From Nitrospinaceae bacterium (GTDB taxonomy: Bacteria > Nitrospinota > Nitrospinia > Nitrospinales > VA-1), in the NCBI GenBank assembly GCA_029261475.1, contig JAJDBG010000016.1, positions 1-58,204 of the forward strand: a stretch of DNA of 58,204 nucleotides. Direction: 5' to 3'. Shown piece by piece: positions 4,107-52,980 of the stretch. The notes beneath the pieces were generated by a model. That model saw nothing but the letters and a program-made list of their open reading frames with translations. It made no database searches and was not told the DNA's origin. A program made the position numbers and the translations under genes. Positions within the stretch are counted from its first letter, which is position 1. Each line of letters begins with the position of its first letter.

Positions 4107-4551
4107 CCCGCTGTGAATAGAACCAGTCAAAATACCGTTCTATTAAACTGGATGATGTAGAGAGGACCCCGCTCCGACGGGCGTGTGTTAACGTCCTTGC
4201 GAGGAGGCGTAGCCAAAATGTAGGGCAAGCTTTAGCGAGCCCACTTAAATAAAACTTTCCTTACATTTCTAGGGATACACAGCTTGCTGTGATATTCCTG
4301 AACAGCGGCAATCCATTTTGACTTTAATTGCTTGCAGCGAACAGGCCAAGCCTGCTGACAATAGAGAATTTATGCTCGATAGGGAGGAAAAAAATTCCCT
4401 TTCCTTCCCGGCAAATTTTGACATCTTTCCTTCGAAAAGCGTTGTAATATTGACGAAAAGCCTCCCCAAAATCATCTCTCTGAAAAACATTAAAATAAAA
4501 AACCGTTTAAATATATGGGTTTACAATATTTACTATATTTAAATAACATTT

Positions 4552-4567
4552 TGGCACACTGATTGCT
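4552..4567 (+). promoter_or_regulatory. Sigma-54 (-24/-12) promoter
   Basis: TGGCACACTGATTGCT: -24 GG (4553-4554) and -12 GC (4565-4566) separated by exactly 10 nt; TGGCAC-N5-TTGC matches the consensus. Confidence 0.75.
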
Positions 4568-4579
4568 TTAAGAAGGGTG

Positions 4580-4715
4580 AAGATTCGAACTGGCACAGCC
4601 TCCTCCAACGGATTGGAAAACCTCCATGATCCAATCTGTGGCGTGCCAAATTTCGATGGGTCATTTTATCTCATTCCGGCTCCCCAATCTGGGGAGCCAC
4701 CCTCCCCCTTCTCTT
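4580..4715 (+). ncRNA. Candidate small RNA / structured leader with CCUCC-bearing loops, downstream of the sigma-54 promoter
   Basis: Hairpin 1 (4591-4648): TGGCAC/GTGCCA, GCC/GGC, ACGGATTGGA/TCCAATCTGT (one G-U), with bulge TCCTCCA (4601-4607) and apical loop AAACCTCCATGA (4618-4629). Hairpin 2 (4678-4698): perfect GGCTCCCC-AATCT-GGGGAGCC, followed by a pyrimidine-rich tail. Confidence 0.5.
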
Positions 4716-52354: not shown

Positions 52355-52370
52355 TGGCACCAGAATTGCT
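52355..52370 (+). promoter_or_regulatory. Sigma-54 (-24/-12) promoter
   Basis: TGGCACCAGAATTGCT: GG (52356-52357) and GC (52368-52369) separated by exactly 10 nt; 53 nt upstream of the lipoprotein ATG. Confidence 0.8.
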
Positions 52371-52422
52371 TATTACTTTGAAAGACTTTAACTTTCATTA
52401 AGATTGACTGGGATTGAATGTT

Positions 52423-52980
52423 ATGAATGCTATGAAAATGATGTACTTGGTTTTCCTTTTGTTATTTTTAACCGCTTGTGAGGTAAAACTTGGACCTTCG
52501 GACTATTGGTCCAAAATGTTTCGAACGCAATCGGACTCTAGTTATTACAAAGAGAAAATGGAAAACCTTGTCGAGGCCTTGTCAAAAAATATTTCAGATT
52601 ATGAAATCAACAAGGTTGCAGTTTTGGATTTGACGGACGAAGTAGGCGAAGCTCCTATCTTGGGAGAGTATCTGGCTACCAGAATTGTCGAAGCGGTTAC
52701 CAATGAAAAAGTATTCCGAGTCGCTCAAAAAGGGGAAGTCAACCAGGCTTTAACGCAGTTAAATTTGAAGCCTTCTTTTGTTTTTTCAAAAGGGGAGTTG
52801 GCAAGTTTGGGAAAAGTTCTTAATTCTCAGGCTGTATTGACGGGAAAAATTACAGATTTGGGAACGAATATTGATGTGCATTTGGCTTTGACAGATGTGG
52901 CTACGGGCGAAGTGATTTCCTCTGCTACGGAAAACTTGAACCGTACTAAATTTGCCGTTGAAATGTTGCGTCATCATTAA
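52423..52980 (+). CDS. FlgO/CsgG-like outer-membrane lipoprotein
   Basis: Lipobox LLFLTAC; INKVAVLDLTDEVGEAPILGEYLATRIVEAVTNEKVFRVAQKGEVNQAL and AVLTGKITDLGTNIDVHLALTDVATGEVISSA. Confidence 0.75.
   Translation: MNAMKMMYLVFLLLFLTACEVKLGPSDYWSKMFRTQSDSSYYKEKMENLVEALSKNISDYEINKVAVLDLTDEVGEAPILGEYLATRIVEAVTNEKVFRVAQKGEVNQALTQLNLKPSFVFSKGELASLGKVLNSQAVLTGKITDLGTNIDVHLALTDVATGEVISSATENLNRTKFAVEMLRHH

Follow-up and report, generated by a model that had tools for sequence, protein, structure and literature searches.

A putative sigma-54-dependent antisense RNA of Nitrospinota that very probably switches off one flagellin

We propose that a conserved intergenic element in a 58,204-nt stretch of DNA from a Nitrospinaceae bacterium (contig JAJDBG010000016.1, here called the window) encodes a stand-alone, trans-acting antisense small RNA (sRNA) of the flagellar regulon, which would repress flagellin B during the building of the hook and basal body. 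We put the probability of this reading at roughly 0.85. Its complementarity to the beginning of a flagellin gene makes it very probable that the RNA turns off the production of this one filament protein during construction of the flagellar base. The proposal draws on a conserved promoter, a fold with compensatory changes, complementarity to the target, selection on the target codons and a linkage between flagella and sigma-54, all observed by computation. The elements of the RNA are listed in Table 1.

Table 1. Elements of the predicted RNA and its promoter, in window coordinates.
Feature	Position	Strand	Basis
Sigma-54 promoter, -24/-12 element TGGCAC-N5-TTGCT	4552..4567	+	Exact match; GG and GC kept in copies
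Conserved sRNA core, 71 nt	4578..4648	+	Covariance model match 4578-4648; promoter spacing; no Rfam family
13-nt single-stranded 5' seed UGAAGAUUCGAAC, antisense to flagellin codons 3-7	4578..4590	+	Invariance; unpaired in folds; complementarity
Lower-stem 5' arm UGGCAC, antisense to flagellin AUG-CCA	4591..4596	+	Partner 4643-4648 when free
7-nt 5' bulge UCCUCCA (anti-SD)	4601..4607	+	Predicted pairing with GGAGGA of the flagellin SD (cofold); retained family-wide
Upper stem and apical loop AAACCUCCAUGA	4608..4639	+	Still folded in most predicted complexes
Lower-stem 3' arm GGCGUGCCA	4640..4648	+	Mimics the target; displaced on binding (predicted)
GC-rich 8-bp 3' hairpin, possible terminator	4678..4698	+	Sequence; C/U-rich tail to about 4715

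The promoter, TGGCACACTGATTGCT, has the GG-N10-GC spacing of sigma-54 sites and lies where the first-pass annotation of this DNA had placed it. Exact sigma-54 matches occur twice in the window, a count that alone is not above chance. The -24 GG and the -12 GC are present in all 39 copies of the RNA that were compared; the count is free of bias for the -24 half only, since the search pattern included TTGC but not TGGCA. In these copies the GG/GC element is found 11 or 12 nt 5' of the conserved block of the RNA, which places the predicted transcription start at the first bases of that block and the predicted 5' end of the sRNA at about 4577-4579. The second exact site in the window (52355-52370, plus strand) precedes a gene (52414-52980) for a lipoprotein whose similarity to FlgO/LpoB is borderline (22.1 bits for FlgO, cut-off 22.6).

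Downstream of the promoter, the main hairpin (4591-4648) folds as the earlier annotation had described, with the stems TGGCAC/GTGCCA, GCC/GGC and ACGGATTGGA/TCCAATCTGT, a 7-nt 5' bulge and an apical loop as unpaired parts. The region 4579-4715 has a folding energy of -52.4 kcal/mol (z -5.25), and none of 200 shuffled sequences folded as well. The conserved part begins 5' of this hairpin, at 4578, and its 13-nt leader is the best-conserved piece; the first 12 nt are invariant in an alignment of 24 genomes, and this seed is left unpaired in nearly all individual folds. CCUCC had been noted in both the bulge and the apical loop, which is correct for the copy in the window, but within the family the motif is present in many apical loops and missing from some, and the bulge region reads CCACCUCCA, CCUCCUCCA or CCAACUCC depending on the genus. 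Likewise, the second hairpin is in place with its tail but belongs to a part of the family only (genera g1, g3, g5, g6 and g8), and it is not a canonical terminator because the tail is C-rich rather than U-rich.

The element is widely distributed within the phylum. Of 41 relatives, 26 gave a BLAST match, but in a few cases what was matched is the flagellin target rather than the RNA, namely a flagellin gene start on the opposite strand. A covariance model gave strong matches (E < 1e-9) in 40 of 77 Nitrospinota genomes. Among 29 distinct copies, both-sided changes occur at 13 of 20 base pairs (10 of 11 in the upper stem), and 93% of the pairing cells are paired, compared to 26-41% with a slid partner strand. 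The compensatory stem changes that the first-pass annotation had proposed to look for were thus found. A promoter-plus-seed pattern scan of GTDB r220 returned 70 matches. Those with a full sigma-54 site all come from Nitrospinota metagenome-assembled genomes (MAGs), save one contig labelled Chloroflexi, while matches in other phyla come without a sigma-54 site and without the hairpin. The strictness of this search may inflate the apparent invariance of the seed; the covariance search gave only a few seed variants. The sample as a whole is dominated by MAGs. The contig titled Chloroflexi SP188 (PBNM01000018.1) carries the RNA together with Nitrospinota-like neighbours, and its label is probably mistaken. 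In five genomes of genus g6 (G013, G017, G021, G060 and G062) there is a second copy of the RNA, whose stem is longer and which lacks a sigma-54 site. It sits immediately 5' of a 62-63 aa open reading frame (MRITDDYQDYRF...) that matches nothing in Pfam, and gives the impression of the same element put to use as a leader. A search of Rfam 15 gave no match to the element at gathering level or at E<=1, and no report of the RNA was found in the literature searched, from which subscription journals were mostly absent. A small protein-coding frame at the start of the RNA (MKIRT...) was considered and is unlikely in view of out-of-frame loop lengths, co-varying stems and a CTG in 2 of 24 genomes.

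The target is indicated by the best-conserved part of the molecule. The first 19 nt of the RNA, UGAAGAUUCGAACUGGCAY, are antisense to the flagellin start AUG CCA GUU CGA AUC UUC A, and the CCUCC bulge continues the same antisense site as the complement of the flagellin Shine-Dalgarno (SD) sequence GGAGGA. Several flagellin_N genes, including a tandem cluster, are found in most flagellated relatives; their leader sequences served to name the paralogues A, B and C. In each RNA-bearing genome where the gene was available, the best flagellin pairs at 16-19 of the 19 positions, with position 13 of the sRNA mismatched in some genera. In RNAduplex the flagellin A/B starts reach -36 kcal/mol in the genome of the window and down to -48 kcal/mol elsewhere. 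With the RNA's own antisense left out of the comparison, the best flagellin start outbinds all ~4650 unrelated 75-nt windows in six of seven genomes tested, while in G001 two of the ~4650 bind better. When cofolded with the full hairpin, flagellin B has a ddG of -19.7, whereas the best among 315 other starts, those of the window, reaches -15.2; in these complexes the seed, start codon and SD are paired, and the upper hairpin is kept in most. The ranking of targets covers the window and the pattern search, and its energy scores leave conditions in the cell out of account. The flagellins of the window's genome lie on another contig (C39), so that the conserved complementarity is to an unlinked mRNA start, as expected of a trans-acting sRNA. 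Flagellin B of this genome has GUA AGA in place of GUU CGA, which reduces the pairing to 16/19 with a 2-nt internal loop. The seed is nevertheless invariant there, and a second target besides flagellin B may exist. Elsewhere, the inspected sites of the seed 11-mer fall in assorted coding regions and none recurs, with the exception of one gene start in G031 (contig C97): this non-flagellin start, GGAGGATACAATGGATATTCGAATCTTCAA (MDIRIFNQF...), is possibly another target.

Selection keeps the pairing in the codons of paralogue B, and does so in a paralogue-specific way. Codons 2-6 of flagellin B have the highest codon conservation in the gene (excess 0.309, next best 0.173, 0 of 220 windows higher), and conservation is ordinary from codon 7 on, where the 5' end of the sRNA would fall. 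The same test gives no peak in A (40/196 windows) or C (26/224 windows). In 2000 synonymous redraws, B out-pairs every draw (z=+6.6), A is neutral (z=+0.7) and C is worse than every draw (z=-4.3); as the genomes are related, these z values are not independent-sample statistics and the contrast between paralogues of the same genome is the safer reading. True double changes of RNA and target are few, namely position 14 in one family and the apical loop in genus g10. The former is seen in G026, a member of a different family, where U14 of the sRNA is changed to A, codon 2 of flagellin A is changed from CCA to CCU, and 18 of 19 positions pair. U14 is also the first base of the stem, and all 29 distinct copies keep it, 12 of them in spite of having lost the base opposite it in the stem; a hold by the target would account for this.

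The promoter, too, points to the flagellum. In the complete sister genome G002, the pattern used finds five strict sigma-54 sites, ahead of flgC/fliF, fliK, flgJ-flgK, a DoxX-like gene (named by eye) and the RNA, so that three of the other four precede hook/basal-body operons. Control of the RNA by nitrogen or stress through RpoN, as suggested earlier, finds no support in this distribution. RpoN is present in the genomes examined, and most flagellins have sigma-28-like promoters 170-280 nt upstream. Two genomes (G009 and G015) possess neither fliG nor the RNA, whereas G007 has both and its assembly lacks flagellin; the flagellated genera g2 and g14 are without the RNA, and their flagellins start differently. 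Hfq was not found in six genomes in which the controls were detected.

Based on these elements, we propose the following mechanism. The sigma-54 RNA polymerase, which also transcribes the hook/basal-body operons, would make an RNA with a 13-nt unpaired toehold at its 5' end. This toehold would pair with codons 3-7 of a sigma-28-class flagellin mRNA, i.e., that of paralogue B and in some genomes also A. The sRNA's lower stem, in which the 3' arm imitates the target, would then be invaded and the AUG covered by strand displacement, and the freed CCUCC bulge would clamp the flagellin SD. About 25 bp of the initiation region would be blocked and that flagellin repressed as long as hook and basal body are made. 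We infer here that the RNA is transcribed, that it represses rather than activates or protects, and that it has a role in timing.

The same RNA and target could also serve the opposite purpose, with the flagellin B mRNA being protected or activated, e.g., by blocking CsrA at GGA sites in its leader. In favour of this, csrA and fliW stand next to each other in 6/6 genomes, and the flagellin B leader contains two conserved hairpins with GGA loops. This double hairpin, GGGUUA-[ AGCUUGGAGGCU ]-[GUUUUGGYAUGGAGGYCAAAAC]-UAACCC, is seen at about 4395-4450 of locus L061 and in other B leaders, and its GGA loops are likely CsrA sites. Nine nucleotides of the apical loop are complementary to CAUGGAGGU in this leader, and 8-9 nt match one GGA-loop hairpin in many genomes (CCUCCAAG with CUUGGAGG; in genus g10, CCUCCCA with UGGGAGG), a match that other genomes lack. 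The apical loop was therefore rejected as a universal kissing partner of the leader and kept as a secondary feature, which may be a second contact or an interplay with CsrA. The strongest and best-conserved pairing covers the SD and AUG and should thus block ribosomes, which makes protection or activation improbable. A CsrB/RsmZ-type sponge for CsrA is not indicated either: in the window's copy, GGA occurs only inside the stem of the main hairpin.

The first-pass annotation had read the element as an independent class of anti-SD sRNA, with the alphaproteobacterial cuckoo RNAs as precedent; as a general anti-SD RNA of that style, it would silence many mRNAs through CCUCC. The sigma-54 sRNA-type element, its compensatory stems and the fit of the CCUCC bulge to GGAGG have been retained from that proposal, and CCUCC in many apical loops speaks for it as well. 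The general class has been given up, since the seed matches flagellin codons 1-7: the invariant part is this flagellin-specific seed, accompanied by selection on flagellin codons, whereas the bulge varies by genus and some apical loops are without CCUCC. The triple CCUCCUCCC motif that defines cuckoo RNAs is also absent (PMC10746234). We regard a general anti-SD function as very unlikely, and the seed and codon evidence rules out a chance anti-SD motif. Least probable of all is a cis-acting 5' leader of the lipase gene, which in the window follows after about 210 nt in the same orientation. The 3' hairpin stands in between, and in most relatives the lipase is not conserved in this place and the downstream gene (a kelch-like protein or kdsA) is convergent, which speaks against a part of the lipase mRNA. 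The antisense RNA would accordingly be intergenic, outside any mRNA and under its own promoter, judging from the 39/39 sigma-54 sites and the convergent downstream genes.

Among known systems, CJnc230/FlmE of Campylobacter is closest in wiring and FliX of E. coli in target. CJnc230/FlmE of C. jejuni is RpoN-dependent, processed from the flgE mRNA, and represses flgM and Cj1387c, thereby raising flagellin (PMC11187230). Similar to this RNA, the Nitrospinota element would be a small RNA of an RpoN-type flagellar cascade that represses translation by base pairing; yet, it has a stand-alone sigma-54-type promoter of its own, with a nucleosidase and kelch/kdsA/lipase genes as neighbours, rather than being processed from a hook-gene mRNA, and flagellin itself is the predicted target, a distinction drawn by description. 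FliX is sigma-28-dependent, derives from the fliC 3' UTR, pairs inside the coding sequence and lowers flagellin (PMC10578931). Both RNAs pair with a flagellin mRNA, here by prediction, but the present one is intergenic with a sigma-54 promoter, would cover the SD and AUG, and occurs where no Hfq was found. CjNC1 and CjNC4 of Campylobacter are flagellar-sigma-factor sRNAs with predicted pairing to flagellar 5' UTRs, Hfq-independent in a reporter assay (PMC4626219); their wiring is opposite, with sigma-28 RNAs acting on sigma-54 mRNAs. The cuckoo RNAs alpha-r14/NfeR1 have three hairpins, each with an unpaired CCUCCUCCC, and many targets (PMC10746234). An unpaired CCUCC able to cover ribosome-binding sites is shared, whereas the Nitrospinota RNA has one main hairpin, one bulge (CCUCCA or variants) and a gene-specific 19-nt seed. 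Finally, CsrA-FliW is a protein-based post-transcriptional brake on flagellin translation (PMC4894983). As csrA and fliW are also present in these genomes, the RNA, predicted to brake the same step, would be an additional layer.

Taken together, we consider it likely, with less assurance than for the main reading, that this is a previously undescribed RNA family of Nitrospinota, with no members in the other phyla searched: a toehold RNA made by sigma-54 would selectively silence one of several flagellin paralogues and, next to CsrA-FliW and with no Hfq, order or ration the filament subunits, and paralogue C would have evolved to escape the pairing. In bacteria with multiple flagellins, the choice of flagellin and its timing are mostly unknown, and flagellar regulation has mainly been described via proteins. 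The RNA offers a concrete switch at the RNA level, with a predicted target and predicted bases. Its toehold, self-displacing stem and anti-SD clamp resemble designed toehold repressors, of which it may be a useful natural example. The Nitrospinota include environmentally important nitrite oxidisers, a phylum in which we found no regulatory RNA of such kind described.
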